In this document: piece by piece, positions 18,850 to 49,673 of the stretch
Layout: every line of letters begins with the position of its first letter
How positions within the stretch are numbered: the first letter of the stretch is position 1
Assembly (NCBI GenBank): GCA_007134485.1
Contig: SLKT01000090.1
Span: forward strand, 1-49,673
Source of the DNA: Wenzhouxiangella sp.
Lineage (GTDB): Bacteria > Pseudomonadota > Gammaproteobacteria > Xanthomonadales > Wenzhouxiangellaceae
DNA length: 49,673 bases
Direction of reading: 5' to 3'
The notes under the pieces: model-generated
The model's input: only the letters and a program-made list of their open reading frames with translations
The model's database searches: none
What the model was told of the DNA's origin: nothing
Made by a program: the position numbers and the translations under genes

Positions 18850-20754
18850 TTACTGAAAGGCGCCTTCGAAACGGTCACGCAGGATGATTTCACCCGCCTG
18901 GTCAAATGCACCCACGTCATCATATTCTGCTCCCAAAAGGATTTTTCTCAGGTGGTGATCAATGTCGCGTCCAGATGACGTCAATGGGGGATCAGGATCG
19001 AGATCTTGCGCACAAGCATCCAGGGCCGGGGAGTCGTCGGAAAGCCTGTGATTGCCCTGGTGTGGATCGACCAGCCCGGGGTCATCCTCGATCAAGGTGG
19101 TGACCAGGTCGGCCTTTCCACTGTGATTCTCGATCGAAGTGATTTCGCGGGCCACGATGCAGGCAGCCCTGGTCACCCTGGTTTCACCGGCCCCGCCACT
19201 GACCAGGCTTGCGGTATCCGGCTGATCAATCAGCAACCCCTCGATGTGCAACTCCATATGCTCGAAAGGAGCAACCTGCGTTTCGATCACGCCCGTGAAT
19301 GAGACGGGGGAGCTCTGTGTTGAGACGGTAGACCATTCCAGCGAGGCGCTGCTGGAGTTGAACAGGCCAAATACGCTTGATTCGGATCCACCCTCGCTGA
19401 GAAACTGGTTGTTGGCGACCAGGCTGTTGTGCAGGACCAGCGAATGCACTTCGTCATCATCGCTGGTATCGCTGCCGTGAACATGGAACACGAGTCCATG
19501 ATCCAGCTCATTCCCTGTGATTTCCGTTTGGTGAAAACTGGCGTAAGCATCGGAGCTGACCGATACAATGCTTCCCGCAACGGGATCAGTCATCGAGTTC
19601 GAGATGATTTTGGAGCATGTCAGCGAGGATTTCCGGATTCGGCAGTCATCATCGCTTTCCATGGCCAGGGAGGCCTCATCGATCACGGTAATCGCGGCCG
19701 CCCCTGACTCGGCTTGATTGGAATCGATGATGACATTGACCAACTCGGCTTCAGTCTCGGCGCCCTCCAGGTAAATCGCTCCCCCATTCAAGGCGCTGTT
19801 GTCGACCATCTCAACCGGCAAGTGTGACTGTTCGCTGATGTCGGGATCGGCGCCATCCATGCGTACCGGGCTTTGACCCGTCGCAAACAGTCCGCCGCCA
19901 AAACCTTCCGCCTCATTTTCCACGATGCCCGACGGATCATCGGAACCGGGCAGGTCTCGACCGCCTGAACCAAACTCAAGCTGGCAGTCGTCCAGGTAAA
20001 TTCCACCACCGTTGGAACCCGCTGTATTCAAGTGGATACCCGTGTCGTTGTCGATGTGAATACCACCACCCTGACAGTAAAGGCCGCCCCCGTGACCCTC
20101 TGCTGAACTCGAGAACAATCGACTGGATCCCGAAATCGTCAGTTCCGGAGCGCCATCATCGGTTTCAATCAATGCGACGGCGCCGCCGTTACCGGTGGCA
20201 TTATTCAGACCGATCCGAACATTGGTGGCAATGATGGTGTGCCCTCCAAGGACCAGCAACCCGGCCCCATCGGCATCGAACGACCGGCCCGTGGCCGAGG
20301 CCGATTCCGTAGTTCCGCCTCCGAACCCGATATCTTGAAATTCAACGTTCAAACTTTCTCCTTCAGGACTGTAAACCTGGACGGCACGATGGTCGTCGAA
20401 GGCAAACAGCACCAGTGGTGGATCAGCCGTAAAATCAAGTAAACAGTCCTCGAAGCCCCCTTTCAGGGTGACTGACTTGGTGATCACGAGTTCGTCGTTC
20501 AATGCAACCAGCCCTTCGCCAGTCATGATGATCGTGTCGCCGTGCTGCGCGGCGTCCATGGCGTCTTGCAACGATTCAAAATCACATTCCTTTTCATCAT
20601 CCCCGACCACGAGTGTCTGGCCCGAGCCGCGCTCGCCGGCATCGATAGAGGCCGGGGCGACCCCGGGCAGTCCCAGCAGCAGGACGAGAATGGGCCACAA
20701 GGCAATGCGCGAGAGACCAAGTCGATCTAGGCAAGTTCCGGGAATTTTATTCAT
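18850..20754 (-). CDS. Secreted parallel beta-helix protein with DRFE tail
   Basis: A 634-residue, acidic exported protein. The N-terminus has a signal peptide (hydrophobic core IALWPILVLLLGLPGVAPA). The body has the hallmarks of a right-handed parallel beta-helix: FESLQDAMDAAQHGDTIIMTGEG at the start of the helix, then many GNGGAVAL, GHGGGLYCQGGGI, SNGGGIYLD and LNGGAIYLEGAE turns. A DSPALDACAQDLD...YDDVGAFD segment near the end matches 'choice-of-anchor Q'-type domains. The last residues are EIILRDRFEGAFQ, a tail shared in variant form by three other proteins here. It is probably a surface or extracellular binding protein or polysaccharide-active protein; no catalytic motif was recognised. 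Confidence 0.85.
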   Translation of the reverse strand: MNKIPGTCLDRLGLSRIALWPILVLLLGLPGVAPASIDAGERGSGQTLVVGDDEKECDFESLQDAMDAAQHGDTIIMTGEGLVALNDELVITKSVTLKGGFEDCLLDFTADPPLVLFAFDDHRAVQVYSPEGESLNVEFQDIGFGGGTTESASATGRSFDADGAGLLVLGGHTIIATNVRIGLNNATGNGGAVALIETDDGAPELTISGSSRLFSSSAEGHGGGLYCQGGGIHIDNDTGIHLNTAGSNGGGIYLDDCQLEFGSGGRDLPGSDDPSGIVENEAEGFGGGLFATGQSPVRMDGADPDISEQSHLPVEMVDNSALNGGAIYLEGAETEAELVNVIIDSNQAESGAAAITVIDEASLAMESDDDCRIRKSSLTCSKIISNSMTDPVAGSIVSVSSDAYASFHQTEITGNELDHGLVFHVHGSDTSDDDEVHSLVLHNSLVANNQFLSEGGSESSVFGLFNSSSASLEWSTVSTQSSPVSFTGVIETQVAPFEHMELHIEGLLIDQPDTASLVSGGAGETRVTRAACIVAREITSIENHSGKADLVTTLIEDDPGLVDPHQGNHRLSDDSPALDACAQDLDPDPPLTSSGRDIDHHLRKILLGAEYDDVGAFDQAGEIILRDRFEGAFQ

Positions 20755-20804
20755 GAGTTCACGACCTCTGGTTTGGTTGTTCTCATTGAGTCCAAACGCA
20801 AAAT

Positions 20805-20833
20805 CCGGAAAAACGTGCCAACCAAATTTCCGG
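20805..20833 (-). terminator. Possible terminator of the HD-GYP gene
   Basis: CCGGAAA / TTTCCGG arms (20827-20833 and 20805-20811) are 7-bp perfect and 15 nt apart. Read on the minus strand the hairpin is followed by ATTTTG. It lies just downstream of the HD-GYP stop and about 50 nt upstream of the secreted beta-helix gene, so it could terminate the former or regulate the latter. The loop is long and the T-run weak. Confidence 0.35.
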
Positions 20834-20853
20834 TTGCCCCCTTGCGGAGCGAT

Positions 20854-22131: not shown

Positions 22132-22272
22132 TCCCGCCAGCGATCACTCGCCGAGTCGAAGTGTGAAAATCCTTGTTGACCATTCATACCGAGCCCCCCT
22201 TTAATTTCTGGCTTATCGTGATGGACCTCACATCTTAGGCCGATTGCTCGCGTTTTTCAAAGATTCTTGCTT

Positions 22273-22329
22273 GACACGGACCGATCGTTGCGTGTCGCCG
22301 GTCCGAACTGCGGCTGGTCCCTGCCGCAG
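22273..22329. promoter_or_regulatory. Two hairpins in the 231-nt gap after the S9 gene
   Basis: The gap 22132-22362 contains a GC-rich perfect stem CTGCGGC / GCCGCAG (22308-22314, 22323-22329, 8-nt loop) and GACACG / CGTGTC (22273-22278, 22291-22296). Both lie downstream of the S9 peptidase stop and upstream of the HD-GYP start. No T-run follows on either strand. They could be a factor-dependent termination region or a 5' leader structure of the HD-GYP gene. Nothing else was recognised in the gap. Confidence 0.3.
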
Positions 22330-22362
22330 ATCGAGCCCAGGCGCCGGACGACAGGACTATGG

Positions 22363-25113: not shown

Positions 25114-25285
25114 GGGAGGACTCCTTGGAATTCAGAATGACATCAGAATCGATCCGGGCAAAATAACAAGACATTCCGGGGTCTGTCATGGGCCAGAGGT
25201 CATGGCCGCGCGGCTCGCCCGGCCCGAACCTCGGTGCTGGTAATTTGACGACCGTCAACGATGCCGATTGGGCCGTGGCAGGATA

Positions 25286-27316: not shown

Positions 27317-27322
27317 AAATTT

Positions 27323-27603: not shown

Positions 27604-27617
27604 CATCATTGTGACTT

Positions 27618-28646: not shown

Positions 28647-28685
28647 ACATCCAATCGACTCGGCCCGCGCCCGATAACCACCTTG

Positions 28686-29270: not shown

Positions 29271-29341
29271 TGCCGGTCACCATGAAAGCACTCCAGGAAG
29301 CCATGACTCTAACAGAACAGGGCGGCTGTTTCCGGCGCCTC

Positions 29342-32116
29342 TTACGGATGATTCCGCCAGCAATTCCTTTCGATGCGTTCCTGCTGGAGACAATCGAGTT
29401 GTCTCAGTACTTCGGAGTCTGACACCATGCTGGCTTGCAGGAGAGGCGCTGTTCGCGCCAGTCGCTCCTGCGCCGATTCGGCGCGGCCGTCGAGCAGTTC
29501 GATTCGGGCCAGGTCGACTTCAAGGGCAGCGGCCAGCGGATGGTCCGGGTCGAGCGCTTCCCGGTACAGTTCGACAGTCTCGGTCAGCATGGCCTCGGCC
29601 TCTTCCAGCGATCCACGCTCGATGAGCGTACCGGCCAGGTCGCCACGTACCGTCAACATCCAGAGATTGGTATCAGGCAGGTGTTCGCTCATCTTTCTCA
29701 AAGCCTGGCGTTGCCGATCTTCAGCGCTTTGGAAATCGCCCTGAAGTGCAGCCAGGCGGCCGGCCAACGCGTGCGAGTATTGGGTGGCCTGATGATCCTC
29801 ATCAAACAGCCGGGTGCGCATGGCAATGGCTTCATTGATCAGCGCCTCGGCTTCATCCAGCGCTCCGGCCATCAGCAGGTTACCGGCAAGATTGTGCAGG
29901 GCGATGGCAACCGACGCGTGCTCGTCGCCCAGAATACGCTGGCGCAGCTCCAGGGAGTCTCGAAACAACGCAGTGGCGCGTTCGGGATCACCGCGATCAC
30001 GGTGAGCAGAAGCCAGGTTGTTGGTATAGATGGCGCGGGCGAACGATTCCGCGTCCAGGCTTTCGATCCACTCCAGCGCCGATTCGTACAGACCGATGGC
30101 TTCCTCGAACTCGCCCAGGTCGTGATGAGCGTTGGCCAGCTCGTTGTAATCGGCGTGCAGGCCGGGGTGGTCCTCGCCGAACAGCCTGATGCGGGTTTGC
30201 ACGCTCTGCTCGGTGGCTTGTTGAGCGCCCCGGTGATCACCCAGGCGCCTGAGAATCTGCGCCAGCAAGCGCTGGCTGAGCGCGTAGTCGGGATGCGACT
30301 CGCCAACGGTGCGCTCCATGATGGCCAGGGCCTCGCGATACAGTTCGGCGGCCGCTTCGTTCCGGCCCAGACGCTGTTCGGACAGGGCGAGATTATGCAG
30401 AAACCGGGCGGTTCTTGTTTCGTTCTCGGACCGCTTGCGAGACTCATCCACCACACTTGAAAACTGCGCTCGGGCCGCTTCGGCGTCACCGGTTTCCAAC
30501 AGCCACAACCCCCAGTGGTTGCGCAGACTCAGACGGGTGCCGGCCGACACTTCGGCATCCTGCTCAATCATGGCCAGCGCTTTTCGAAAAGGCGCTTCGG
30601 CTTCGTCAAAGCGCTGATGGCGAGTGCGCACGTACCCAAGCAGGCTCAGCGCCCGGGCACGAACCTCGGGCTCGCTCGATTGACCGGCGCGTTCCAGCAG
30701 CTCGTCGGCCTGGTCATAGGCTTCAAGTTGTTGGTACACCTCGCCGAGTGCGAGCAACATGCGGTGCTCGAGTTCGGGGTCAAGACCGGGGCTTTCCTGC
30801 AGGGTGCGGTAACCGCGCTCGAGCACCTCGGCCACGGTCACATCACGGTCCAGCGACTGTTCGGGTGAAGCCGAACCGATGATGTCGATCAGAAAATCGA
30901 GCACCTGGCCGGCATGCTGCGCCTCGCGGGCCGCGGTCGCTTCGGCCAACCGGGCGCTCTGATATTCGCCCAACCACTGCCAGGCCATGGTGGCGGTGAC
31001 AACCAGCGCCAGCACGGCCGCGGCCACCGCGGTGCGATGGCGCCGAACGAACTTGCCGAGTCGATAGGCGAAACTGCTGGCCACCGCATCGACGGCCCTG
31101 CCTTCCAGATAATTGAGCAGATCGGCCTTGAGGGCGGCCACCGACGAGTAGCGCCGTTCCGGCTCCGAGCGCGTGGACTGATCGATGATGGCGGCCAGAT
31201 CGCGCGGCAACTGACGCTGCCAGAGAGTTCGTCCCAGCGCTTCGTCTTCGGGGGGGCGCCTGGCATCGTCCTCGAAACCCAGCAAGGCCAGCAGCAATCG
31301 GCCAAGGCTGTACACATCGCAGGCCGTGGTCACCGGTTGGCCATCGAGTTGTTCGGGACTGGCGTAGCCCGGGGTGTAGTAGCGGGTGGTCTGTTCTGCA
31401 CTGGCGGTCGGCGTGGACAACAGCTTGGCAATGCCGAAATCGAGCAGCATCGGGCGGCCTTCACGGGTCACCAGTACATTGCCCGGCTTGATGTCGCGAT
31501 GAATCACCAGGTTCTGGTGGGCGTAGTGCACGCCATCGCACACGGCCATGAACAAGCGGATGCGCGCATGGCGATCAAGCTCTTGGTCGCGACACCACTG
31601 CGTGATCGGCACCCCGTCAATGTACTCCATGACCAGGTAAGGTTGACCGTCTTCGGTACTGCCGCCGTCAAGCAGGCCCGCGATATTCGGATGGGAAAGA
31701 TCGGCCAGGATCTGGCGCTCACGCCTGAGCCGTTCCAGCGCCTCGTCACCCGGAAAACCGCGGATCAGCTTGATGGCCACGTGAGTTATGTATTCATCAT
31801 CGTCGCGCTCGGCCAGGTAGACCGTGCCCATGCCGCCGCGACCCAGCGCCTCGATGATCCGGTAGGGCCCGAGTTTGCGTGATTCGGGCACGGCATCAGG
31901 GCGATCAACATCCCTGGCGATGCCGGAAACCGCTCGATCGACACGCTCATCATCCGTGTCGTGGCGCTCAAGCAATTCAAGCACCTCCTCGACCTGTTCG
32001 GGTGAATCCGGACACTGATCCTCAAGCCACTCCCGGCGCCGGCTTTCCGGGATATCCAGTGCACCGTGAAACAGTTGACGAAGGGTTCGCCAGTAGCGGC
32101 TTTCGGTTTCAGTCAT
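29342..32116 (-). CDS. Membrane Ser/Thr protein kinase with TPR region, partner of the ECF sigma factor
   Basis: A 924-residue protein. A short N-terminal helical segment (residues 1-75, WRTLRQLFHGALDIPESRRREWLEDQC) is typical of sigma-linked kinases of this class. Kinase domain about 85-345: GRGGMGTVY (92-100), VAIK (Lys116), HRDIKPGNV (206-214), DFGIA (226-230), YYTPGYASPEQLDG. All catalytic residues are intact. One membrane helix follows (about 365-387). The remaining 500 residues are TPRs (for example GEVYQQLEAYDQADELLERAGQ and NLASAHRDRGDPERATALFRDSLELRQRILGDEHASVA), predicted outside the cytoplasm. It likely passes an envelope signal to the downstream sigma factor. Confidence 0.94.
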   Translation of the reverse strand: MTETESRYWRTLRQLFHGALDIPESRRREWLEDQCPDSPEQVEEVLELLERHDTDDERVDRAVSGIARDVDRPDAVPESRKLGPYRIIEALGRGGMGTVYLAERDDDEYITHVAIKLIRGFPGDEALERLRRERQILADLSHPNIAGLLDGGSTEDGQPYLVMEYIDGVPITQWCRDQELDRHARIRLFMAVCDGVHYAHQNLVIHRDIKPGNVLVTREGRPMLLDFGIAKLLSTPTASAEQTTRYYTPGYASPEQLDGQPVTTACDVYSLGRLLLALLGFEDDARRPPEDEALGRTLWQRQLPRDLAAIIDQSTRSEPERRYSSVAALKADLLNYLEGRAVDAVASSFAYRLGKFVRRHRTAVAAAVLALVVTATMAWQWLGEYQSARLAEATAAREAQHAGQVLDFLIDIIGSASPEQSLDRDVTVAEVLERGYRTLQESPGLDPELEHRMLLALGEVYQQLEAYDQADELLERAGQSSEPEVRARALSLLGYVRTRHQRFDEAEAPFRKALAMIEQDAEVSAGTRLSLRNHWGLWLLETGDAEAARAQFSSVVDESRKRSENETRTARFLHNLALSEQRLGRNEAAAELYREALAIMERTVGESHPDYALSQRLLAQILRRLGDHRGAQQATEQSVQTRIRLFGEDHPGLHADYNELANAHHDLGEFEEAIGLYESALEWIESLDAESFARAIYTNNLASAHRDRGDPERATALFRDSLELRQRILGDEHASVAIALHNLAGNLLMAGALDEAEALINEAIAMRTRLFDEDHQATQYSHALAGRLAALQGDFQSAEDRQRQALRKMSEHLPDTNLWMLTVRGDLAGTLIERGSLEEAEAMLTETVELYREALDPDHPLAAALEVDLARIELLDGRAESAQERLARTAPLLQASMVSDSEVLRQLDCLQQERIERNCWRNHP

Positions 32117-32211: not shown

Positions 32212-35200
32212 TCAGGGCTGCTCGAAGCGATCGCCAAATACCGAATCGGCCAGTTCGAATGCGCCCAGGTCCACGGCTTTGCCGGTCACTCTTGGATTTC
32301 CGTCCAGGTCCGTGGACACATCCTCGACGTATTCGTTGTTGCCGGCGGCAATGACCGGGGAAGCAGGAGCGAGGCGCAGGTTTCCGTACGTGCTGGGCGC
32401 CTGGGTCGGGTCGGCAGGCTCAATGAAGGCTGGATCCGCATCGGGCAGGTTGGATCCATCGATCTCCTCACCGCATTGACTCAACCAGGTGCCTTCGGGC
32501 TTGCAACCGTAAGCCAGGCTGTGGCTCGCGGTCAAGTGAGCGGGTCCGAGATTGCTGATCGAATTCGGGAAATTGATCCAGAGAATACTGTTGCGAATCT
32601 CAACCTCGACGGCAAAACCATAATTGAGAATGGCCCCTCCCTCACTGTCCGCCACGTTGCCACTGAAAGTAACGTTGGTCAGGACGGAATGGGCGCCGTC
32701 GGAGTTGCTATCCCGGTGGGCAAACCCGCCACCGGAATCGGCATGGTTGCCGCTGAAAAGAGCATTGTTCAGGACCAGGTCACTGCTGCCTGTTCGGACA
32801 AAACTGGATATGCCGCCTCCGTACCGACCCGCGGAGTTGCCGATGAAGGCGACGTTGGTCAGTACCGGATTACTGGATCCGGACTCCTCGATGAGGATCG
32901 ACATGCCGCCGCCACTTGCTGCTGCGGTATTGTCAATGAAGGTCACGCTGGTCAGCGTGGGCGTGTCCTCGCCAGCCGGACCTTCAATGGCCATTCCCCC
33001 ACCGGTGTTGGCGGAATTGTTCTTGAAGGTCACCTGGTTCAGCACGGGACTGGTCGAGCCATCCCGGCCATCATTCATCATGCCTCCACCGCTGACTTCG
33101 GCAACATTGTCGGTAAAAAGGACCTGGTTCAGCACCGGATGGCTGTTTCCCTCTCGACCGTCATTGAGCATACCGCCGCCCCGGGTGCCTCCCCAGTTCT
33201 CATAGAAAACGACATTGGTCAGCACCGGGCTGGCATTGCCGCCGTAACGCCCATCATTGAACATGCCGCCTCCTCTTTCGGCGACCTCGTTTCTGGTGAA
33301 GGTGACGTTGTTGATGGAAGGGCTGCACTCATTGCCGCTGCCCTGACCGCGACAGACCATCCCGCCACCGCGATTGTGTGGATTGTGATTGCCATGGCCG
33401 CCGGTGATGACAAAACCGTCGATCACGGTCTCGTTGGTGATGTTGTCGCCGGCCTGTCCATCGACGACGACCACGTTATAGGCATTGCCTAAAAGATCGC
33501 CCGAAGCATTGATATCACCGCTGAGCACGGTTTCATTGGCTTCCCAATCGCGCTCATCAAGGCTGGTTTCGCCGCCGGCAAAACCACCGTACACCTGAAT
33601 GCCATCATGAACAATCGTGAAGCTGGCCAGACGGTCACTCGGATGATCAGTGGGCAGATAAGCACCCTTGGCCACCCAGACCTGGCAGGGTTCGGTTACA
33701 CGCAAGGCATCCTGCAGGTCGATAAATGCCGAAGCCCAGGTCAGGCCATCCTGGGGTTGGGAGGCTTGTTGGTCGACATGCACCACGCCTGCGGCAGGGC
33801 ACCGGGAGGACGGCGTTTCATAGGCGCCCAGATCGATAGCCAAACCCAGCAGCCGGGCATAGCCTGCCAGATCGATATCGGGCAGCCCGGCATCGAATGC
33901 ATCATTGTCACCGGCATCGATGGCCGGTGATTCGGATGTCAGGCGCAGATCACCCGACACTGTCGGTGCATCGACCGGGTCGACCGGTGCAATGAACAGC
34001 GGATCGGCATCAAGGTTGTTGCCGCCGTCCGCACCGATCTCCGATACCCAGTCCTGGCCACTGCCACCGGAATTGGCAACCAGACTATGCGAGATACTCG
34101 TTATCGAATGCTCCAGATTGTAAATCGACGCCGAGACGGAAAAGGAATCACCGTCTGCTTCGTTGTTCCAGATGATGACGTTGACCAGATCGGTGATCGT
34201 GCCCAGACCATTGGCAATGGCTCCACCGCCACTGTCTGCAACATTGCCACTGAAGGTCGAATTGACTACCGTGGTTTCGACTTGATGGCCGATGTCCATT
34301 GCGCCACCATTATGTCCTGAGCTGTTGCCTGAAAACACCACGTTGAACAACTCGGCAGAAGCTTGATTGGCGAGCCTTATCCCGCCACCGTTGGAGTTCG
34401 CCACATTGGCCTTGAAAACCGTGTTGAGAATGGTCAGTGATGCATTGCTTCCAGAGGTGCTGATTCCCGCACCCAGGCTGGAAGCGTTGTCGGTAAACAC
34501 CACACCGTCGAACAGGGCTTCTCCACCGTCGTGATACAAGCCGCCCCCGGCCACTGTCCCGGTATTGTCACGAATCGCTACATCGACCAGGACGAGGTCG
34601 GCATCCCGATTGTGGATTCCACCGCCGCGACCATCTACCGGGCCGGTTCCGGTCGTGTATCCGTGCTGAATGCTCAAGGCGGCAAGGGTTACCGAGTCCG
34701 TGCCTTCCGGAATCATGATGACCCGATCGTCAGCCTCGCCCGCCACAGCGTGGGCCTGGATGATGGTTTCATCCCGACCCTCTCCGAGCAACGACAAGGG
34801 CTTGTCCAGGGTGAGTGTCTCCGTGTACACCCCGGCGGCAATCTGAATGTCGTCATGGTCAAGCGCCATTTCGATGGCATGTGCGATGCTTTGACATGGA
34901 GTCGCAACGTCGAGACAGGCATTGCTCGTGTCGCTTCCATCGGTGGCCACGTAGCGCGTGCCGGCCAACTCACTGACGAGCATGCGAACTTCGCCGGCAT
35001 TGTGCGTGATGAGCTCGGCGCCAAGCCCCGGCGGCAGGTGGGCTACAGCCGGACCATTGTTCACCAGAGATCCGGAATAGGTCATCAAGGTATAACTACC
35101 GGGCTCAAGTCCCTGCGAATGGGACAGATCGATAACGCCATCCAGGACCAGGTCACCATCGATTGCGATCAGATCATTGACTCCTTCACCGACAGTTTCC

Positions 35201-36384
35201 GGGATCGAAAGCTGAAATTCTAGGATCGCGTTCTCATCCAGTGTCAGATCACCCATGGTGAGGGTGCCGACCGCATGACCGGGTGACAATGTTCCACTGT
35301 TGACGATGACATCGCCGACTTCTCCGTGACCGGCCAGTGTGCCGCCGGCATTCACCGTGACCACCGATTCGGCGCTGGTCCCGTTGATCACCAGCGTGCC
35401 GCCCTCAATCGTGGTTGCGCCGGTAAACGCATGCTCTCCCTCGATGACGGTGGCCCCAATTCCGATGTGTTCCAGCTGCGTGGAACCAGCGATTTCGACC
35501 GCTTCCCCGTCGGCTTGACCGTTGCTGGTGAAGTAATGGTTGTCATGGTCATGGTCGAAGATGATGCGGGCATCGCCAAATCCCCCCTCCACAAACGAAG
35601 CAGAGAAAATGCCCGGCGCTTCGCCGGCGCCAATCCGGATCTGTGCGCCTGAACCCGCTGCCCAGGCTAGCTCTACAGTTGAGCCCTCGCCGAAATCGGC
35701 GGTTCCGCCACCCTCGACGCTGACTCCCCCGGCGCCGAACTGACCGACCCTCACTGTGGGAGACTCGGTCAGCGTCCCCGCACTCAAATGACTGCCCTGG
35801 CCCTGCACCACCACTTGGCCTTCTGCCAAAGCGTTGACTCCGACTCGGAAGTTTTGGCCGATCTCCAACTGCCCGCCATCGGACACGGTCACGGTTCCCC
35901 GGCCACTGGGTGCAACCACAAACTCATCCGAGGCATGCCAGGATGAATCTTCACCTTCCACGATGGCCGTACTGGTTTCCCCTTTGGTCGTGGTTTCAAC
36001 CCGGACAGGCGACTGACTGATCAAGGCGCCGCCATCGAGAATGTAGAGGCTGCCGACGCCGAACTGCCCGATGCGAGTGAAAGAACCGTCCACCACAAGC
36101 TCCCGGCCAAAGCGAACAACAAGCGTCCCGGAAGCGTCCTCCTCCGTGCCCACGAAAAGACCGTATGCCGCTCCGTCCGCCGTTTGTACGGCGGCCATGC
36201 CACCATTATTGATAACGGCTGACACGGATTCGGTCGGTACGCCATTCGACCAGTGGAAAGGGTCACTCCACAGGTCGTTCACGGCTGTCCAGTGGGTCGT
36301 TTCGGATCGTGCAGTTGTCATGCCCGACGCGATACCGCACGCGACCAGGACGATCAGAAACTGAATTGCAGGTTTGAAATTCAT
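32212..36384 (-). CDS. Giant secreted beta-helix protein, paralog A (autotransporter-like passenger, DRFE tail)
   Basis: A 1390-residue exported, acidic protein. Signal peptide about 1-26 (FLIVLVACGIASGMTTARS). Residues about 30-420 hold autotransporter-associated repeats: GVGSLYILDGGAL, GRGTVTVSDGGQLEIG, FTGATTIEGGTLVING, GHGEVGDVIVNSGTLSPG. Then comes a first polymorphic-outer-membrane-type beta-helix beginning GTRYVATDGSD and ending with SPAIDAG...DLGAYE. A second helix starts VVHVDQQASQPQDGLTWASAF; it contains about eight 33-residue repeats of the GGGMxNDGR...SPVLxxVxF type and ends DLGAFELADSVFGDRFEQP. No C-terminal beta-barrel follows. It is a likely surface or matrix adhesin. The gene starts 40 nt after its paralog's stop. 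Confidence 0.88.
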   Translation of the reverse strand: MNFKPAIQFLIVLVACGIASGMTTARSETTHWTAVNDLWSDPFHWSNGVPTESVSAVINNGGMAAVQTADGAAYGLFVGTEEDASGTLVVRFGRELVVDGSFTRIGQFGVGSLYILDGGALISQSPVRVETTTKGETSTAIVEGEDSSWHASDEFVVAPSGRGTVTVSDGGQLEIGQNFRVGVNALAEGQVVVQGQGSHLSAGTLTESPTVRVGQFGAGGVSVEGGGTADFGEGSTVELAWAAGSGAQIRIGAGEAPGIFSASFVEGGFGDARIIFDHDHDNHYFTSNGQADGEAVEIAGSTQLEHIGIGATVIEGEHAFTGATTIEGGTLVINGTSAESVVTVNAGGTLAGHGEVGDVIVNSGTLSPGHAVGTLTMGDLTLDENAILEFQLSIPETVGEGVNDLIAIDGDLVLDGVIDLSHSQGLEPGSYTLMTYSGSLVNNGPAVAHLPPGLGAELITHNAGEVRMLVSELAGTRYVATDGSDTSNACLDVATPCQSIAHAIEMALDHDDIQIAAGVYTETLTLDKPLSLLGEGRDETIIQAHAVAGEADDRVIMIPEGTDSVTLAALSIQHGYTTGTGPVDGRGGGIHNRDADLVLVDVAIRDNTGTVAGGGLYHDGGEALFDGVVFTDNASSLGAGISTSGSNASLTILNTVFKANVANSNGGGIRLANQASAELFNVVFSGNSSGHNGGAMDIGHQVETTVVNSTFSGNVADSGGGAIANGLGTITDLVNVIIWNNEADGDSFSVSASIYNLEHSITSISHSLVANSGGSGQDWVSEIGADGGNNLDADPLFIAPVDPVDAPTVSGDLRLTSESPAIDAGDNDAFDAGLPDIDLAGYARLLGLAIDLGAYETPSSRCPAAGVVHVDQQASQPQDGLTWASAFIDLQDALRVTEPCQVWVAKGAYLPTDHPSDRLASFTIVHDGIQVYGGFAGGETSLDERDWEANETVLSGDINASGDLLGNAYNVVVVDGQAGDNITNETVIDGFVITGGHGNHNPHNRGGGMVCRGQGSGNECSPSINNVTFTRNEVAERGGGMFNDGRYGGNASPVLTNVVFYENWGGTRGGGMLNDGREGNSHPVLNQVLFTDNVAEVSGGGMMNDGRDGSTSPVLNQVTFKNNSANTGGGMAIEGPAGEDTPTLTSVTFIDNTAAASGGGMSILIEESGSSNPVLTNVAFIGNSAGRYGGGISSFVRTGSSDLVLNNALFSGNHADSGGGFAHRDSNSDGAHSVLTNVTFSGNVADSEGGAILNYGFAVEVEIRNSILWINFPNSISNLGPAHLTASHSLAYGCKPEGTWLSQCGEEIDGSNLPDADPAFIEPADPTQAPSTYGNLRLAPASPVIAAGNNEYVEDVSTDLDGNPRVTGKAVDLGAFELADSVFGDRFEQP

Positions 36385-36424
36385 TTGCAGACCTCTTGCG
36401 CGGTTTCTCGTGGCAACGATGATC

Positions 36425-39400
36425 TCAGGGCTGCTCGAAGCGGTCGCCGAATACCGAATCGATCAGTTCGAACGCACCCAGGTCCACGCCATCGCCTGAA
36501 ATCCTCTGGTGTCCGTCCAGGTCCGTGGGCACATCCTCGACGTATTCGTTGTTGCCGGCGGCAATGGCCGGGGAAGTCGCCCTCAGGCGCAAATTCCCAT
36601 CGGTGCTGGGCGCATCGGACGGGTCGACCGGTTCGACGAAAGCCGGGTCCTCGTCGGGCAGATTGGATTGATCGATTTCGTCGCCGCAATGGGTCGCCCA
36701 GATCCCAGACATCTTGCATCCTTCGGCCAGGCTGTGGCTGACCGTCGAGTGCGCACCTTCGAGGTTGTGGATCGCATGCACGCCATTGTTCCAGAGCAGG
36801 CTGTTGCGAATCTCGACCTCGATGTCACTGCCGGAATTGAAGATGGCCCCGCCGTCATTTGCCGACGAGTTGCCGCCGAAAGTGACATTGGTCAGGACGG
36901 CGCTGCTGCCGCCGATATGGACGGCCAGGTGGGCCAGCCCGCCGCCGGCGTCGGCGGCAGCATTGCCGCTGAACACAACATTGGTCAGGGTCGGGTTGCT
37001 GGTACCGGTCTGGGCAAAGCTGTGCATGCCGCCACCGAACTGACCGGCGGAGTTGCCGATGAATTCGACATTGGTCAGTACCGGTTCACTGGCTCCGAAT
37101 TCATCGATGAAATTCAGCAGCCCGCCACCCGATGTTGCGGCGATATTGCCGCTGAAGACCACGTTGGTCAGCCTGGTCGTGTTATCCCCGTCCGGTCCAT
37201 CATTGGCCATGCCGGCGCCGGTGGTGGCGGAATTATCCTCAAAGATCACGTGCTCGAGGGTCGGGTTGCTCGATCCACCGCGACCATCGTTCATCATGCC
37301 TCCGCCGCGCTGGGCGTCATTGCCGGTAAAGCTGACCTGGTCAAGGCTGGGACTGCTGTTGCCGGATTGACCGTCGTTGAGCATGCCGCCACCGCGGGCG
37401 CCGCCCTCGTTCTCGTCAAAACTGACCTGGGTCAGAACCGGACTGGCATTGCCGCCGAAGCGTCCGTCATTGAACATGCCTCCGCCGCCCAGGCTGGCAA
37501 AGTTTCCGTGAAAGCTGACATTGGAGATTGAAGGACTGCATTCGTTGTCACTGCCCTGGGCGCGGCAGACCAGGCCGCCGCCAAGATTGCGGGGTATACC
37601 GCCGTCGGCGTTGCCGCCGGTGATGACAAAGCCGTCAATGACGGTTGCGTTGGTGATGTTGGCGCCGGACTGGCCATCGACAACAACCACGTGATAGGTA
37701 TTGCCTGAAAGCTCGCCCGAGGCATTGATGTCACCACTGAGCACGGTTTCGTTGGTTTCCCAGTCGCGCGCTTCAAGACTGATTTCACTGCCGGCAAAGC
37801 CGCCGTAAAGCGCCAGGCCGTCTTGATCGATGGTGAAGCTGGCCTGGCGGTCATTCGGGTCATCGGTGGGCAGATAGGTGCCCTTGGCCACCCAGATCTG
37901 GCAGGGCTCGGACAAGCGCAAGGCATCGTGCAGGTCGGTGAAAGCCGAACCCCAGGTCAGACCATCAGCGGGCTCGGTAGCTTGCAGGTCGACATGCACG
38001 ACACCGTCGTCCGGGCACTGCGAAGACAGCGTTTCGTAGGCGCCCAGATCAAGCGCCGAGCCGACCAGTCGGGCATAGCCTGCCAGATCGCTGTCGGGCA
38101 ACCCGGCGTCGAATGCATCATTGTCTCCGGCATCGATGGCCGGCGATCCGGACATCAGTCGCAGATCACCCGACTCGGTGGGGGCATCGGCCGGGTCAAG
38201 CGGAGCCACGAACAACGGATCGGCATCCAGGTTGTTGCCGCCGTCTTCGCCAATGTCCGGATTCCAGCCCGCGCCACTGCCACCGGAGTTGGCGATCAGA
38301 CTATGGAAGACCTCGGTGGTGGCATCAATCTCGTTGCAAATCGAGGCTGAAGCCGAATCGTCATTTCCATCGGCTTCGTTGTCCCGAATGATGACATTGG
38401 TCAGTTCGACGGAAGCGCCCAGGAAATTGTAGACGGCGCCACAGTCGCTGCCGGCGGCATTGCCACTGAATGTCGAGTTGACCACCATGGCATCGACAAG
38501 ACTGCCGTTGGCCAACGCACCACCATCTCTTCCCGCGGCATTGCCGGAGAAGACCACATTGAACAACTCCACGGTCGCACTGTTGATGCCATACATGGCG
38601 CCGCCGTCGGCATCCGCCTCATTGGCCTTGAATATCGTGTTCACGATGGTCATGGACGCATTGCTGCCGGAGACATTGATTGCACCGCCCAGGTTGGACG
38701 CATTGCCGACGAACACCACACCGTCGAGCCAGGCCTGGCCGCCGTCATGGTAAAGACCGCCTCCGGCCTGTTCGCCCGAATTGTCACGAAACGCCACGTC
38801 GACCAGGGTCAGGTCGGCATCCAGGTTGTGGATGCCGCCGCCACGTCCCGCGAACTGATCGGCGTCCGACGCATATCCGTGACGAATAGTCAGGGCGGCC
38901 AGGGTGGCCGAGCCGGCAACTTCGGGAATCAGGATGACCCGTTCATCGGCTTCTTCGGGCAGCGCATGGGTCTGGATGATGGTTTCATCCCGGCCGGCGC
39001 CAAACAGGGACACGGGCTTGTCCAGGACCAGGGACTCTGTATAGATCCCCGCCGCGATGACAATGTCGTCGTGATCGACGGCCACATCAACGGCATGAGC
39101 AATGGTTGCGCAGGGTGATTCGATTTCAAGGCAGAAATTGTCCGCGTCGTCCCCTTCCGGCGCGACATAGCGAGTGCCTGTTCCACCCGTGACCACGGCC
39201 CGGATCTGGCCGGGCTGACTGGTGTCAATGGAGGCTTCAAACCCTTCTGGAAGCTCACCAATGCTCAGCCCGTTGTCCGTGAGCGTGCCGTCATATATCA
39301 TCAAGGTATAAGTGCTGGCCGCGAATTCTCCCGTGTCGCTGATGTTCAACTGACCATCCAGGGTCAGGTCGCCATCGGTCATGATCAGATCGTTGATGCC

Positions 39401-40945
39401 GCCACCAACGGTTCCCGGCGCGCCCAGGTCGAATTCCAGAATGGAGCCAGCGGAAAGATCAAGGGTATCCATTGACAAGGTGCCCGTCGAAGGTCCCGGT
39501 GCAATGACCCCACCATCGAGCACACTGACGTTTCCGACGGTACCCAGTCCTTCAAGAATTGCTTCCGATTCGACCGTCATTTGCCCGGCGAGAAAATCAT
39601 CGACCCGTAAGCTGCCCTCGGCAATCCGGGTTGATCCACTGAAGCCGATGCTCATCCCTGTCAGCGTCAGGACCCCCTGACCGGTCTTGGTCAATTCGCC
39701 TTCGCCCTGAAAATCCGTGGCGATGGTAATGTCGTATCCTGCGGTATCAAAAAACGCGCCACCGGATTCGATGACGATATCCTCGGATGCAAACGCCCTG
39801 AGAAAGTCATCCTGATGTCCGGATGCCCTCAGCACACCGCCGTCGAAATGGATTTGCGCGCTTCCTTCACCCTTTTCAACATAAGAAACCGTCACGGCGC
39901 CGCGTGCCTGCTCGCTGCCTTCCAGGTTCAACACACCATGGGCGTTGTCCGTGATCGCACCCTCTCCGAGGATGAGGTGTTCTCCAATCTCGATCAGCCC
40001 GCCATCATCAACCGTAAAAGTACCCAATTCACCCCGGCCGATCGACATCACCCCGCTGACTTCCAGCAGCGAATCCTGACCGCGTACGGTGGCCGCGGAC
40101 CCCGAACCCAGACCGGAGGCGGTGTTGGCATTCCCATGCACGGTCGTGGCGGCGCCATCCTCGATGGTCAGCGTGCCCCAACCGAATCCACCCACCAGCA
40201 AGCCCGTGTCGCTGACGTTGTTTTCCCTGCGAATGTCCCAGAGAGTACCCTGACCGGTCACCAGCACCGCACCACTGCCCTGGGTGCCGGGTCCGATCCA
40301 GCCGTTGCCCACGGACACAACCTCTGCGCCATCCTCGATGGTCAGCGTTCCGTCACCGAATCGGCCGATGTATGAAATATGCTGGACCTCCAGGTACGAA
40401 TCCGGACCGGTGACGGTCACCGCTGCCTGAGCGGGGACACCCGAGCCGATCTCCACCGACGCAGCGCCAGAGCCGGAAACAATCACCTCACCGCCGTCTT
40501 CGATAATCAATGTCCCGGAATCATCATTCTTGGCAATGATGAGTGCGACGTTTTCCGGTTGATTGCCAAGAATATGCCAGGCAGCATCCTCGCCGCTGAC
40601 CGTGACCAGGCTTTCAGAGCCGGGTTCCCTGGTCATCCAGACTTGCCCATCGACCTCGACCTTTCCACCCGCCAGGATGGACAACGAAGCCGTTCCGGTA
40701 TCGGCCACCACCAGGTCACCGATCTCCCAGGGACTGGCATGGTCCCCGGGAACCGTCACATCCTCATCATCGATCACGATCTCGGCGCCGGCCGGAAGGA
40801 CATGCAGGGCCAGGACGCAAGAGGCCGCGAGCAGGCCGCAGAAGAATCCGGTCGGCAGACCGGTACTGAAGACAATCTGGCGGTCGGTGGTGTCGGTGGC
40901 CGCGCAGTCGGTTGGCCCGGGATGTTCCATTGTGTGTGTAGTCAT
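36425..40945 (-). CDS. Giant secreted beta-helix protein, paralog B (autotransporter-like passenger, DRFE tail)
   Basis: A 1506-residue protein with the same plan as the downstream paralog. The signal segment FFCGLLAASCVLALHVLPAGA follows a 30-residue polar N-region; a later internal start is possible. Residues about 60-560 are passenger repeats (GWGTLTIEDGAATTVHG, ELTKTGQGVLTLTGMSIGFSGSTRIAEGSLRVDD, a classic autotransporter-associated beta-strand repeat). A GTRYVAPEGDD beta-helix ends SPAIDAGDNDAFDAG...DLGAYE. A second helix, VVHVDLQATEPADGLTWGSAF, carries the NDGR repeats and ends DLGAFELIDSVFGDRFEQP. The two paralogs are nearly identical in the last 60 residues and in the DNA there. There is no barrel. 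The two genes likely form one transcript with this one first. Confidence 0.88.
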   Translation of the reverse strand: MTTHTMEHPGPTDCAATDTTDRQIVFSTGLPTGFFCGLLAASCVLALHVLPAGAEIVIDDEDVTVPGDHASPWEIGDLVVADTGTASLSILAGGKVEVDGQVWMTREPGSESLVTVSGEDAAWHILGNQPENVALIIAKNDDSGTLIIEDGGEVIVSGSGAASVEIGSGVPAQAAVTVTGPDSYLEVQHISYIGRFGDGTLTIEDGAEVVSVGNGWIGPGTQGSGAVLVTGQGTLWDIRRENNVSDTGLLVGGFGWGTLTIEDGAATTVHGNANTASGLGSGSAATVRGQDSLLEVSGVMSIGRGELGTFTVDDGGLIEIGEHLILGEGAITDNAHGVLNLEGSEQARGAVTVSYVEKGEGSAQIHFDGGVLRASGHQDDFLRAFASEDIVIESGGAFFDTAGYDITIATDFQGEGELTKTGQGVLTLTGMSIGFSGSTRIAEGSLRVDDFLAGQMTVESEAILEGLGTVGNVSVLDGGVIAPGPSTGTLSMDTLDLSAGSILEFDLGAPGTVGGGINDLIMTDGDLTLDGQLNISDTGEFAASTYTLMIYDGTLTDNGLSIGELPEGFEASIDTSQPGQIRAVVTGGTGTRYVAPEGDDADNFCLEIESPCATIAHAVDVAVDHDDIVIAAGIYTESLVLDKPVSLFGAGRDETIIQTHALPEEADERVILIPEVAGSATLAALTIRHGYASDADQFAGRGGGIHNLDADLTLVDVAFRDNSGEQAGGGLYHDGGQAWLDGVVFVGNASNLGGAINVSGSNASMTIVNTIFKANEADADGGAMYGINSATVELFNVVFSGNAAGRDGGALANGSLVDAMVVNSTFSGNAAGSDCGAVYNFLGASVELTNVIIRDNEADGNDDSASASICNEIDATTEVFHSLIANSGGSGAGWNPDIGEDGGNNLDADPLFVAPLDPADAPTESGDLRLMSGSPAIDAGDNDAFDAGLPDSDLAGYARLVGSALDLGAYETLSSQCPDDGVVHVDLQATEPADGLTWGSAFTDLHDALRLSEPCQIWVAKGTYLPTDDPNDRQASFTIDQDGLALYGGFAGSEISLEARDWETNETVLSGDINASGELSGNTYHVVVVDGQSGANITNATVIDGFVITGGNADGGIPRNLGGGLVCRAQGSDNECSPSISNVSFHGNFASLGGGGMFNDGRFGGNASPVLTQVSFDENEGGARGGGMLNDGQSGNSSPSLDQVSFTGNDAQRGGGMMNDGRGGSSNPTLEHVIFEDNSATTGAGMANDGPDGDNTTRLTNVVFSGNIAATSGGGLLNFIDEFGASEPVLTNVEFIGNSAGQFGGGMHSFAQTGTSNPTLTNVVFSGNAAADAGGGLAHLAVHIGGSSAVLTNVTFGGNSSANDGGAIFNSGSDIEVEIRNSLLWNNGVHAIHNLEGAHSTVSHSLAEGCKMSGIWATHCGDEIDQSNLPDEDPAFVEPVDPSDAPSTDGNLRLRATSPAIAAGNNEYVEDVPTDLDGHQRISGDGVDLGAFELIDSVFGDRFEQP

Positions 40946-43470: not shown

Positions 43471-43561
43471 CCGGGCTCAAGCCCCGGCGCAACGGTTTGA
43501 AATAGCCGGGCGTGATGCGTATACATCGGGCTGGCCCAAAACTGCCTTGGCCGATTTAGTC

Positions 43562-44202: not shown

Positions 44203-44212
44203 TCAGCTTCGA

Positions 44213-45808: not shown

Positions 45809-45894
45809 TTGTCTCTTTTTCCCTTCCATTCCCCCACGGGCCATCATGACGTCATTTGCGGTGATCGTTCATTGGTGAAGACTGCGCAGGTACA

Positions 45895-48800
45895 CTATTC
45901 TTCGAATCGATCAGCGAAGATTTCGTTGCCGACGCCCAGCGTATGCTGTGCCTGCAACGGGGAGACACCGTCGGCCTCGGCCTCGGCGATGTTGACGATC
46001 ACGCCGTCATCCATGTCATTCTGGGTCACCGTATATGTGCCGGTCAGGATACAGGTATTACCCGGCGCCACACTTGCACAGTTCTGCACATCGGGATCGA
46101 GCATTGGGTCGCTGACGGCCACGTTGTCGAGCGAAACATTGCCGGTGTTGGTCGCCGTGACCGTGTACTCAATAACACTGTCGACATCGATTGGATCCGG
46201 AACATCGGTCAATTCCTTGTCCAGACTCAAGTCCAGCTCCATGACCAGGAAAGCGAGCGCACTGGATCCACCACCGCCCGGTGAAGGGTTGAACACGGTC
46301 ACATCCACGTTGCCCGGTTCGGTGACCTCGCTAGCCGGCACCTCGGCGGTCAATTCGGTTTCACTGATAAAGTTGGTGACGAGATCAACGCCGTCAAAAC
46401 GCACCACCGAGTCTTCCACAAAGTCCTGCCCGAAAGCGCTCAGGTTGAAGCTGCCGCTACCAACCTCGATCGAGTCCGGGTCAATCGAAGTCAGCACCGG
46501 CTCGGGATTGTCCGGTGGAAGCACTTCGAGCTGCAGGTCGACTTCGGTGACCGGGTTGGCCGGGTCGTTGCTGTCGATGCACACCGTGGCATTGTAGATA
46601 TTCGGAGTCAGTCCGGTGGCGTCGAAGTCGACAAAGACGTCCATGTTGTCGTTCCCGTCGATCGATCCGGATTCGGGATCAATATCATCGACCCAGACCG
46701 GCAGAACGCATCCCGGATCGGATTCGTTGACGGCCCAGTCCAGACGCTGTTCACCGTGGTTGTTGATGGTGAACATCTTCGTGTCGGCATCGTCGACTTC
46801 GAGGGTTTCGGACAGGCTGGGGGGAACCACGTCGATGTCCGGTGGATCGATGGCCGCCACTTCCAGTTCGACCGGAACGACCATCACGCTTCGCCGAGGA
46901 TCATTGGTTTCAATACAGATCTGGGCTTCATGGATTCCCTGGGCAAGGCCATCGGCGTCAATTTCCACTTGCAGGGTGTCGGTGCTTCCGGCAGCGGTGG
47001 TGCCTGAAGTCGTCATGATAGCCAGCCAGTCAATGGCATCTGGAGAGGCGCACGCTGTCGGCACCGCAATGCTCATCGAAATCAGACTGGACCCTCCGTC
47101 GATATCATCGATATAAGTGGCAGTACCGGTGTCGGTATCGATTGTCATCATCTCGGACGGACCCCCGGTGGCAGGCACCCGGGCCCAGTAAAGTGTGTCG
47201 GTGGAATGATCGAAGTCCATGTCCTGGATTTCGGTTGCCATGTCAACGCCCAATGAACCGACAACATCTGCCTGTCCGCTGTGCTTGTCGATTGCCAGCA
47301 GCACTTCATCCTCGATGTCGATGCCATACATCTGACCGTCGAAACTGATTGCGATGGCGACGACGATAGCATTCGTCGACATGCCGGACCATTCAATCTT
47401 GCCCACTTGGGTAGCTTCCAGGCTGGCGACGTCGATGGTATAGATATAGGAGTCCTCAAAGTCGTACAGTACTGCGTACAGTGCTTCGGTGGAATAGTCC
47501 CAACTCATGCTTGTCCAGACATTCGACGCGTGAGCGCCGGTTACATCCCCGACCTCGGTAAAATCACCGGTTTGCGTGTCAAAGGAAAACAGGGTGTGAA
47601 AAGTCGATCGAAGCAACAGGTGCTCGCTGAAATCGTTGTCGACAAAGGCACCTGCAGTCAGGGGTACGAATCCGGATGAATCATTAAGCACATTGAATGT
47701 CCCCGGATCGAGCACATCGAGGCTGACATAACCCTGATCGGGACTTTCCGTGGTTGAAAACGCCGGCACGGCCTGCGAAGACCGCATCTGTGGACCGGCT
47801 TGAGCCGGTTCGTGAAGGAATGTGCTCCAGTTCAGCGCGATGGAACCATCGACATTGTCAATGGTCAGCGAATCGCTGGCGGTTCCATCCGTGGCCACAG
47901 TCACTTCCAGCGACTCCGGATCCGTGCGAGCACACGGCGATTCGACCAGCAGATCGAGATCGACGATTTCGGTGGCGCCGGCACCCAGCATCAGTCCGGA
48001 TTCGACCCCGTCCAGATGGCCGGCCAAGCTGGCCGTGATATCGATCGGTGATTCCCCCGAGTCAATCTGGACCGAGTACTCGCCATTTTCATCGGCGCTG
48101 ATGTTCCAGGTGGTATCGGCGCCGGCGATTTCGATGTCGGCATGTTCGGCCGGCTGGAGATCATCGTTGCAGTAACCCAGGCTGTCGATCTGCCCGGAGA
48201 TGGTTCCGTAGTGGGCCGGCGCCTGAACGTCCAGGTTGATCGGAACGAAAAGCACCGGGCGCATCGGATCATTGGTCAGCACGCACAACGTGGTCGAGTA
48301 ATCGCCCGGAAGCAGTCCGTCGGTATCGAATTCGACATCGATCGTGTCAGCATCACTGCCTCCCACGCTCCCGCTTTGAGCTGACAGCGACAGCCACTCG
48401 ACACTGACCGGGCTGTCACAGGTCGGTGCATCGAAGTTGGTCAGACCGAACTCGGCCGGACCACTGTAGCCTTGTAGTACATGGACCCGGAAGCCGAGCA
48501 GGTCTCCCGCTTCCACGGGAATGGTTTCCGACTCCTCGAAATGATCCACCTCGTTCCAGGTATCGGCCAGGAATGTAAAGTCGTCATTGACTCTGTACCA
48601 GGCATCGCTGTACCAGGTGACCGGGGTCTCAAAGCCCCAGTCAAAAGAAACTTCGCCATCGCGCGGAACGGTGATCTGGAACTCGGTATAGCCGACGACC
48701 CCTTCGTCACCACCCATGACAAAGAGCTCTACCGGCGGTCCCGGTTCATCGTCAATGAATCCGCCAACGGCCGGAGGGTTGTTGACAACCGTCCAATTGG

Positions 48801-49673
48801 CCGGGTCGTAATAGCCGGCAAAGTCGCTGATGCTTCGCGCGCCGGATGTTGTGTCCTTAACCTCGATGGCCCACTCCAGGGTCTGGTCACCCAGATTTTC
48901 CAGTGTCAGCGGGACCGAATCGGTATCATCCGGAAACATCTGCATGTCAATTTCTGTCGGCTGCAACTCTGCCGTTGGCGGCAGCTCATCGAACAGGCAT
49001 TCGTAACCCTCGATCCGCACATTGTCAACAAAGATACCGGGTGTAGTCGATGAGCCGGAATCCAGTGTCCATCTCAGTCGCAGATTGTTGCCCGCGGCAT
49101 TGGTGATATCCGCATCCAGCCGATTCCAGAACCGTGTTTCCATGAATTGATTCTCCCAGACCGTACTCGATACACCATCGACGATCGCTTCGAGCGTTGC
49201 TTCATGGTTATTGGGGCCGAGCAGGTCCCACGCCTGGCCCCAGTAAAGAGTCATTCCATCGACACCGGCTGCCGCCGAAAGGTCGATGGTCCCCGATTGA
49301 AGGGACTCATGACCCAGGGTCGCGAAATCCCCATCCAGATTGGTCCCCCAGCAGTTATCCCCCACCTTGCACTCGTTGGGCCAGTCGTTGGGACTGCCCC
49401 ATTCCCAGGGCAGGGGAAAGCCGGGAGCATCGGTGAAATAGCCCCCGTCATCGGAATCGAAGTCCTCGCTGTAATAGGTCGTGGCGTCCTTGAAATAGCC
49501 CGGTGCTTCACAGGCATGGAGATCGGGATCGACATCGATGTCGACGGTGATATCTTCGGTCAGCGGGCCGACGGTCACCAGTGTTTCGTCGTAGCCATCG
49601 GCCAACACGGTGACCTGGAGTTCGAACTGCTGACTTTCCGGCAGATCGATGGCGTACTGGCCATCCGGACCGA
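45895..49673 (-). CDS. Huge secreted multidomain protein, C-terminal part, DRFE tail (5' end outside window)
   Basis: The frame is open from the right edge; a GTG at 49608 lies inside a carboxypeptidase-regulatory-like domain (GPDGQYAIDLPESQQ... upstream of it), so the true start is beyond the window. At least 1259 residues are visible. In order: regulatory-like beta domain; a carbohydrate/MAM-like module (YYSEDFDSDDGGYFTDAPG ... GIFVDNVRIEGYE); several repeats of about 90 residues ending CVLTNDPMRPV / CIETNDPRRSV / CIDSNDPANPV; a second regulatory-like domain; a WD/kelch-like central part; an IPT/TIG domain (PVLTSIDPDSIEVGSG); a DUF11-like domain (YTVTATNTGNVSLDNVAVSDP); and the tail GVGNEIFADRFEE. 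It is strongly acidic. Such C-termini often follow an S8 peptidase, but none is visible here. Confidence 0.9.
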   Translation of the reverse strand, partial: GPDGQYAIDLPESQQFELQVTVLADGYDETLVTVGPLTEDITVDIDVDPDLHACEAPGYFKDATTYYSEDFDSDDGGYFTDAPGFPLPWEWGSPNDWPNECKVGDNCWGTNLDGDFATLGHESLQSGTIDLSAAAGVDGMTLYWGQAWDLLGPNNHEATLEAIVDGVSSTVWENQFMETRFWNRLDADITNAAGNNLRLRWTLDSGSSTTPGIFVDNVRIEGYECLFDELPPTAELQPTEIDMQMFPDDTDSVPLTLENLGDQTLEWAIEVKDTTSGARSISDFAGYYDPANWTVVNNPPAVGGFIDDEPGPPVELFVMGGDEGVVGYTEFQITVPRDGEVSFDWGFETPVTWYSDAWYRVNDDFTFLADTWNEVDHFEESETIPVEAGDLLGFRVHVLQGYSGPAEFGLTNFDAPTCDSPVSVEWLSLSAQSGSVGGSDADTIDVEFDTDGLLPGDYSTTLCVLTNDPMRPVLFVPINLDVQAPAHYGTISGQIDSLGYCNDDLQPAEHADIEIAGADTTWNISADENGEYSVQIDSGESPIDITASLAGHLDGVESGLMLGAGATEIVDLDLLVESPCARTDPESLEVTVATDGTASDSLTIDNVDGSIALNWSTFLHEPAQAGPQMRSSQAVPAFSTTESPDQGYVSLDVLDPGTFNVLNDSSGFVPLTAGAFVDNDFSEHLLLRSTFHTLFSFDTQTGDFTEVGDVTGAHASNVWTSMSWDYSTEALYAVLYDFEDSYIYTIDVASLEATQVGKIEWSGMSTNAIVVAIAISFDGQMYGIDIEDEVLLAIDKHSGQADVVGSLGVDMATEIQDMDFDHSTDTLYWARVPATGGPSEMMTIDTDTGTATYIDDIDGGSSLISMSIAVPTACASPDAIDWLAIMTTSGTTAAGSTDTLQVEIDADGLAQGIHEAQICIETNDPRRSVMVVPVELEVAAIDPPDIDVVPPSLSETLEVDDADTKMFTINNHGEQRLDWAVNESDPGCVLPVWVDDIDPESGSIDGNDNMDVFVDFDATGLTPNIYNATVCIDSNDPANPVTEVDLQLEVLPPDNPEPVLTSIDPDSIEVGSGSFNLSAFGQDFVEDSVVRFDGVDLVTNFISETELTAEVPASEVTEPGNVDVTVFNPSPGGGGSSALAFLVMELDLSLDKELTDVPDPIDVDSVIEYTVTATNTGNVSLDNVAVSDPMLDPDVQNCASVAPGNTCILTGTYTVTQNDMDDGVIVNIAEAEADGVSPLQAQHTLGVGNEIFADRFEE

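Follow-up and report, generated by a model that had tools for sequence, protein, structure and literature searches.

The basis on which type II secretion systems (T2SSs) choose their cargo is an open question. In the part of the source consulted, the PDZ domain of EpsC selects a subset of T2SS cargo and is fully required only for VesB, and the authors describe the T2SS as having no linear universal signal (PMC12369372). For PelI, the excerpted account describes a 9-residue exposed loop that acts as a T2SS signal and several loops that jointly form a composite signal (PMC7949064). The Xps assembly platform is treated in a further study, likewise consulted in part (PMC11981180). Here, we describe a short motif, in its order-wide form the seven residues [ILV]FxD(G/R)FE, a variant of which ends four proteins encoded in a 49,673-nucleotide stretch of DNA from the gammaproteobacterium Wenzhouxiangella sp. 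(order Xanthomonadales; contig SLKT01000090.1, hereafter the window). As judged from sequence, this tag is conserved, is common to unrelated folds, lies at protein ends, at domain boundaries or in a loop, and has changed as one repertoire. We put at roughly 0.45 the probability that it is a short, portable, linear address on folded, Sec-exported exoproteins of Xanthomonadales that is bound in the periplasm by one particular T2SS, termed T2SS-A below.

The tag and the proteins that carry it

The preliminary description of the window had reported a shared tail on four otherwise different secreted proteins. The tails EIILRDRFEGAFQ, DSVFGDRFEQP (twice) and NEIFADRFEE are indeed C-terminal, and their general form is (F/L)xDRFE, with L rather than F at motif position 1 of the 634-residue protein. 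In the source genome (G000; 3.35 Mb, 206 contigs; G-numbers denote genomes and L-numbers loci), the DNA pattern TTYNNNGAYSGNTTYGAR for FxD(R/G)FE has 57 matches against none for a reversed control, and 54 of the 57 encode DRFE. The motif F lies at most 25 residues from the stop in 50 of these places, in 48 of which it is directly preceded by I, L, V, M or F. When the first position is relaxed to any codon with a middle T, 71 places are found against 4 in the control; among the ten translated of the 17 non-F places, only the LRDRFE protein of the window has a C-terminal tag.

Matches were then read in six genomes (57/57 places in the source genome, 19/20 in G005, 7/10 in G010, 22/36 in G031, 26/51 in G110 and 13/16 in G063). 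The tag is C-terminal at 124 of these 144 places, and I, L, V, M or F stands at position -1 in 119 of the 124. The median number of residues after FE is 2 in the source genome, 2–3 in five of the six genomes and 8 in G010, where only four tails were available. Such short ends leave no space for a hydrophobic helix and a basic cluster, which bears out the view that the tail is unlike those of PEP-CTERM and LPXTG proteins.

When 49 complete C-tagged proteins, selected by motif from five genomes, are aligned, the only invariant columns are the F, D, F and E of the motif. The proteins include subtilases, M28, M36-like and LapA-like peptidases, endonucleases, propellers, and FG-GAP, beta-helix and Ig-like proteins, as well as choice-of-anchor B, D, J and Q types. 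Relatives of LapA, ExeM/NucH and M36 enzymes are among them, below NCBIfam cut-offs where shown, and five tagged proteins have VesB/HYDIN-type Ig domains. Proteins of these LapA, ExeM/NucH, M36 and VesB/HYDIN types are T2SS or rhombosortase cargo elsewhere. A crude predictor finds a signal peptide in 37 of the 49 C-tagged proteins and in 6 of 10 proteins tagged elsewhere, against 99 of 483 untagged neighbours, an enrichment that agrees with the proposed link to export; several of the 12 C-tagged proteins that the predictor missed visibly have one. The tag is thus carried by predicted exported proteins of many unrelated folds.

The tail had also been tied to a preceding choice-of-anchor Q domain. 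Both giant proteins of the window match this family (NCBIfam, 2e-19 and 1.4e-20), but the 634-residue protein does not at E values up to 1, so the association is only partial there; among the 49 tagged proteins it extends to 8, and the tie does not hold in general.

Position and relocation

Strict C-terminality, as first proposed, does not hold either, since internal and N-terminal copies occur. Read by eye, the tag directly follows the signal peptide in L090, L105, L106 (two copies), L114 and L130. It lies between domains in L051, L108, L139 and L146, and in L139 it is located where the C-tagged homologue L126 terminates. One C-terminus bears the tandem tag FWDRFEKPADELFWDRFEQ (L044:5988-6044). 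The clearest case is L016, a GSDH-type propeller of the source genome, which has FSDRFE in an extra loop stretch and no C-terminal tag. Other genomes supply four homologues (L065, L076, L096, L254) with a C-terminal tag and no extra loop stretch, and the stretch is also missing from a fifth homologue, L037, which is from the source genome and cut off. As judged from sequence, the tag has thus moved in nature from one position to another within a single fold. The AlphaFold model of L016 (mean predicted local distance difference test, pLDDT, 52) was not used.

FxDGFE resembles the first strand of what we take to be jelly-roll domains (FADGFETGDTSAW), and the tag may be derived from, or mimic, such a strand. 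In L106 and L107, the sequence reads FADGFE(T/S)GDTS(A/S)W, and the tag overlaps the apparent start of a jelly-roll type domain.

Distribution across Xanthomonadales and the G-to-R switch

Across 250 Xanthomonadales genomes (f, family labels; g, genus labels), most families have the motif in abundance, and counts close to the control level are seen in the majority of f2 and f12 genomes. Many genomes have dozens of copies, so the motif reported from four proteins recurs widely among relatives. In a class-level sample of 321 genomes, 316 of the 317 that belong to other orders have no more than 9 matches. These counts are low but often exceed the reversed control, and a few tags may therefore exist there. 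The exception is G496 with 14 matches; in the three translated, Q, F and R take the place of I, L or V before the motif F, and each is close to a stop, with two in short frames. Two genomes within the order were rejected as tag carriers: G019, with no tails in the three of eight matches translated, and G189 (f12). Six of the nine G189 matches were translated; five of them clearly do not form tails, and the sixth is in a short frame, 16 residues ahead of the stop.

R follows D in 732/789 of the motifs in genus g1 and 40/45 of those in g6, compared with 10/45 in g7, 12/160 in g3, 12/99 in g2/g4/g5 and 59/1069 across 31 genomes sampled from other families. The whole predicted repertoire of one genus has thus switched from G to R. 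A switch of this breadth leads one to expect a common reader for all tags, and a single partner presumably reads them.

A type II secretion system as the candidate reader

A survey of GspD in 75 genomes yields two types of full-length secretin, A and B. In the source genome, the type B secretin lies within an Xps-like operon (T2SS-B), and type A lies in a gspC-D-E-F cluster (T2SS-A) beside rhlE, trx and rho, with names beyond gspC and gspD read by eye. Four components of T2SS-A are assigned: GspC (HR and PDZ domains), GspD (N0 and a secretin domain), GspE and GspF. The domains of the first two come from Pfam, and the last two were named on visual reading and from the resemblance of the A and B copies to each other. 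Its pseudopilins and GspL/M were not located. GspC of T2SS-A has T2SSC and PDZ domains in Pfam, and its model (mean pLDDT 75.7) matches the EpsC PDZ, the PulC PDZ and the GspC HR domain. The GspC-like protein of T2SS-B has no Pfam match and no detectable PDZ.

Co-occurrence was scored over the 250 genomes with the A secretin as query, a threshold of at least 8 motifs and a main set of 200 genomes at least 90% complete. In the main set, 70 of 76 genomes with the A secretin reach the threshold, compared with 10 of 124 without it. The corresponding values are 91/107 and 17/143 for all 250 genomes, and 21/31 and 7/19 for those less than 90% complete. Within the main set, the threshold is reached by 24 of 25 f1 genomes with the A secretin (no f1 genome is without), by both f2 genomes with it (49 and 68 motifs) and none of 51 without, and by 5/6 against 1/46 in f12, the one being G189. 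In smaller families, the values are 20/20 with it and 1/1 without (G048, 180 contigs). Family f9 has 18/20 with it and 4/5 without; of these four exceptions, G123 has an A-type GspC, G153 a secretin fragment, G118 is a 460-contig assembly, and G019 was rejected above. The GspC family PF11356 exceeds its curated cut-off in 27 of 66 genomes, namely each of the 26 A-secretin genomes tested and G123, where the secretin had been missed; the other 39 give two weak matches below the cut-off. G117, with 7 matches, has T2SS-A and true tails.

T2SS-A is the best candidate found for a co-occurring family: its cargo is folded and Sec-exported, its GspC contains a PDZ domain, and it is found together with the tag. 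Even so, it is distributed more widely than the tag and is missing in two tagged genomes. Of the suggestion that the tail is a recognition tag for a dedicated machine, the first half is favoured by the order-wide survey, the signal-peptide enrichment and the G-to-R switch, by which the motif behaves as a tag of exported proteins; the dedicated machine is unproven.

In the proposed mechanism, the canonical T2SS-A (gspC-gspD-gspE/F) would bind the tag in the periplasm, most probably by strand-type docking on the GspC PDZ and/or the GspD N-domains. Tagged proteins would thereby be routed to T2SS-A instead of the coexisting Xps-type T2SS-B, and then out of the cell. The tag may have arisen to divide cargo between two T2SSs in one cell, as suggested by the few motifs that go with the A-type secretin in other gammaproteobacteria. 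More tentatively, and with the odds somewhat against it, the tag could be the first linear, transferable and terminus-independent T2SS signal, a routing label of two-T2SS Xanthomonadales read by the GspC PDZ, with the G-to-R switch reflecting co-evolution of label and reader. GspC PDZ positions 268 and 279 (L157:4779-5663) are acidic in DRFE genomes and not in DGFE genomes of f1; no weight was given to this pattern, since it reflects a single evolutionary event and acidic residues also occur at these positions in some G genomes outside f1.

Several observations weigh against T2SS-A as the reader. G063 and G097 (f8, 97–98% complete) have true tails without an A secretin or a PDZ-type GspC, and in f8 the link fails, with 1/3 genomes with the secretin and 4/21 without reaching 8 motifs. 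Conversely, G089, G064, G082 and G229 have an A secretin but 0–3 motif matches, and those translated in G089 (1/1) and G082 (3/3) are not tails. In the secretin tree, G229 and G064 have very long branches and that of G089 is longer than its neighbours; that of G082 is not long. The A-type secretin is also found in Woeseiaceae, Chromatiales and Beggiatoa-type records, and the sampled families outside the order are motif-poor, so T2SS-A is not sufficient for the tag. Moreover, the A secretin appears to be vertically inherited within the order, so shared losses in the same lineages would give other ancestral genes an equal correlation; the exosortase XrtH, considered below, partly shows such a correlation. 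Finally, Wenzhouxiangella AB-CW3 is reported to release no proteolytic activity into its medium, and in the part of the report consulted its authors assume surface anchoring (PMC7691419), an account equally compatible with an anchor and an exporter.

The divergent canonical T2SS secretin of G229 (f12, L163) groups with Thiohalomonas and Parabeggiatoa (long branch) and not with its own order; no Xps-type secretin is among the matches listed for this genome.

Alternative readers

The AB-CW3 report also suits a different role, in which tagged proteins are exported by any route and held by a surface receptor through the tag, much like a non-covalent dockerin. The choice-of-anchor B, D, J and Q types among tagged proteins, the retention of tags in G063 and G097 without T2SS-A, and the independence from the terminus all suit a ligand. 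Such a surface role is a serious rival, though less likely than not in our estimate, given the strong T2SS-A association outside f8 and a neighbourhood comparison in five genomes (neighbourhoods rather than whole genomes) that revealed no receptor family. The same comparison, of 682 open reading frames (ORFs) near tags, gave 7 clusters present in at least three genomes, four of which hold tagged proteins. The remaining three, Ser/Thr-kinase/TPR, winged-helix regulator/TPR and ABC-ATPase paralogues, provide no machine.

If the Xps-type T2SS-B read the tag, or a component common to both T2SSs did, the tagged f8 genomes that have T2SS-B only would be explained. The only full-length secretin in G063, a genome with about 10 clear tails, is of the Xps type. 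G019, which lacks a GspD match, has no tails among those of its matches that were translated. This explanation is improbable: among 23 f2/f12 genomes that were tested and lack T2SS-A, 22 encode a full-length GspD above the cut-off and yet have no tag repertoire.

Processing of the tail by an exosortase of the XrtH type is highly improbable. Of 34 genomes tested that reach the 8-motif threshold, 22 have a PF09721 match, G063 and G097 among them; the 10 tag-free f2/f12 genomes tested have none, and neither do the tagless G064 and G089. The three matching proteins that were scanned are XrtH (TIGR04177, 181–209 bits). The tails lack a transmembrane helix or basic end, and XrtH is present in the tag-poor G007, G018 and G087. 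XrtH is rejected as the reader because 12 of the 34 tag-rich genomes have no match, among them the source genome and the single-contig G037 (84 motifs). Short exosortase-like XrtH proteins (L341-L353, L355-L360) are frequent in tag-carrying Xanthomonadales, with no IPTL-type target in the loci examined.

That the tail has no signal function, being inherited with a common last domain or a compositional accident, draws on the paralogy of some tagged proteins and the jelly-roll likeness of FxDGFE, but is already contradicted by the many families among the 49 proteins, the 57 matches against 0 in the control, the coordinated G-to-R switch and the loop relocation, and merits almost no credence.

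Whichever partner reads it, the tag could aid the annotation of many uncharacterised exoproteins. If T2SS-A is the reader, secreted or surface proteomes would become predictable across much of the order, and the natural moves of a shared seven-residue tag between terminus and loop make the question of T2SS cargo choice directly testable. A surface receptor would instead imply a new non-covalent display system. Literature on the motif strings, sorting signals, secretion and choice-of-anchor domains yielded no mention of the tag, as judged mostly from search results.

Features of the window

The tagged genes of the window are listed in Table 1. The two giants belong to one similarity cluster; these adjacent related genes (32212-40945) encode repeats whose name refers to other export routes, yet their products end in the tag. 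The Ser/Thr kinase beside them belongs to the most recurrent family of untagged neighbours of tagged genes (4/5 genomes).

Table 1. Tagged proteins and other features of the window
Feature	Position	Strand	Tag
ORF with a long Glu-Pro repeat run, within which the contig starts	1-110		
634-aa exported protein, weak POMP-type repeat (TIGR01376)	18850..20754	minus	LRDRFE, 18865-18882 (tail EIILRDRFEGAFQ)
Ser/Thr kinase with TPR repeats	29342-32116		
1390-aa exoprotein, T5SS/PEP-CTERM-associated repeats and two choice-of-anchor Q stretches	32212..36384	minus	FGDRFE, 32221-32238
1506-aa protein, T5SS/PEP-CTERM-associated repeats and choice-of-anchor Q	36425..40945	minus	FGDRFE, 36434-36451
Exoprotein of at least 1258 aa, BACON/HYDIN-type, IPT/TIG and DUF7507 domains	45895..49671 (cut at contig edge)	minus	FADRFE, 45901-45918

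Comparison with known sorting and secretion systems

The PEP-CTERM/exosortase, LPXTG/sortase, GlyGly-CTERM/rhombosortase and MYXO-CTERM systems likewise place one short C-terminal signature on many unrelated exported proteins. Choice-of-anchor domains and M36-type proteases, whose NCBIfam families are named after other sorting signals, are shared between CTERM-type systems and the tagged set. Unlike the CTERM and LPXTG signals, which have a hydrophobic helix and a basic end, the tag has no transmembrane helix or basic end and also occurs N-terminally and in a loop. No C-terminal transmembrane helix with a basic cluster follows the motif as in PEP-CTERM proteins, and no exosortase match (PF09721) is found in 12/34 tag-rich genomes. 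The tails, read directly, contain no LPXTG-like motif with a hydrophobic tail (sortase genes were not searched for) and no helix of the GlyGly-CTERM kind (rhombosortase itself was not searched for).

Cargo of the type IX secretion system (T9SS) combines a Sec signal peptide with a C-terminal address on folded proteins, as the tagged proteins do. The T9SS address is a folded C-terminal domain, whereas the tag has six core residues, and no T9SS sorting domain is among the 25 of 50 NCBIfam families listed for the 49 tagged proteins (T9SS genes were not searched for). The RTX signals of type I secretion are short, uncleaved and C-terminal; the tagged set differs in that most of its members have Sec signal peptides.

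T2SS substrates have a Sec signal peptide, fold in the periplasm and serve as extracellular enzymes or adhesins. The crude predictor calls a signal peptide in 37/49 of the tagged proteins, some of their domains are cargo-like, and they may be T2SS cargo. PelI loop 3 with the OutC PDZ and OutD, and the VesB Ig fold with the EpsC PDZ, are cases in which an exposed stretch or small domain of a folded periplasmic protein is selected by the GspC PDZ, with similar types of cargo. In the accounts consulted in part, known T2SS signals are structural and protein-specific, whereas the tag is one linear motif common to many proteins.

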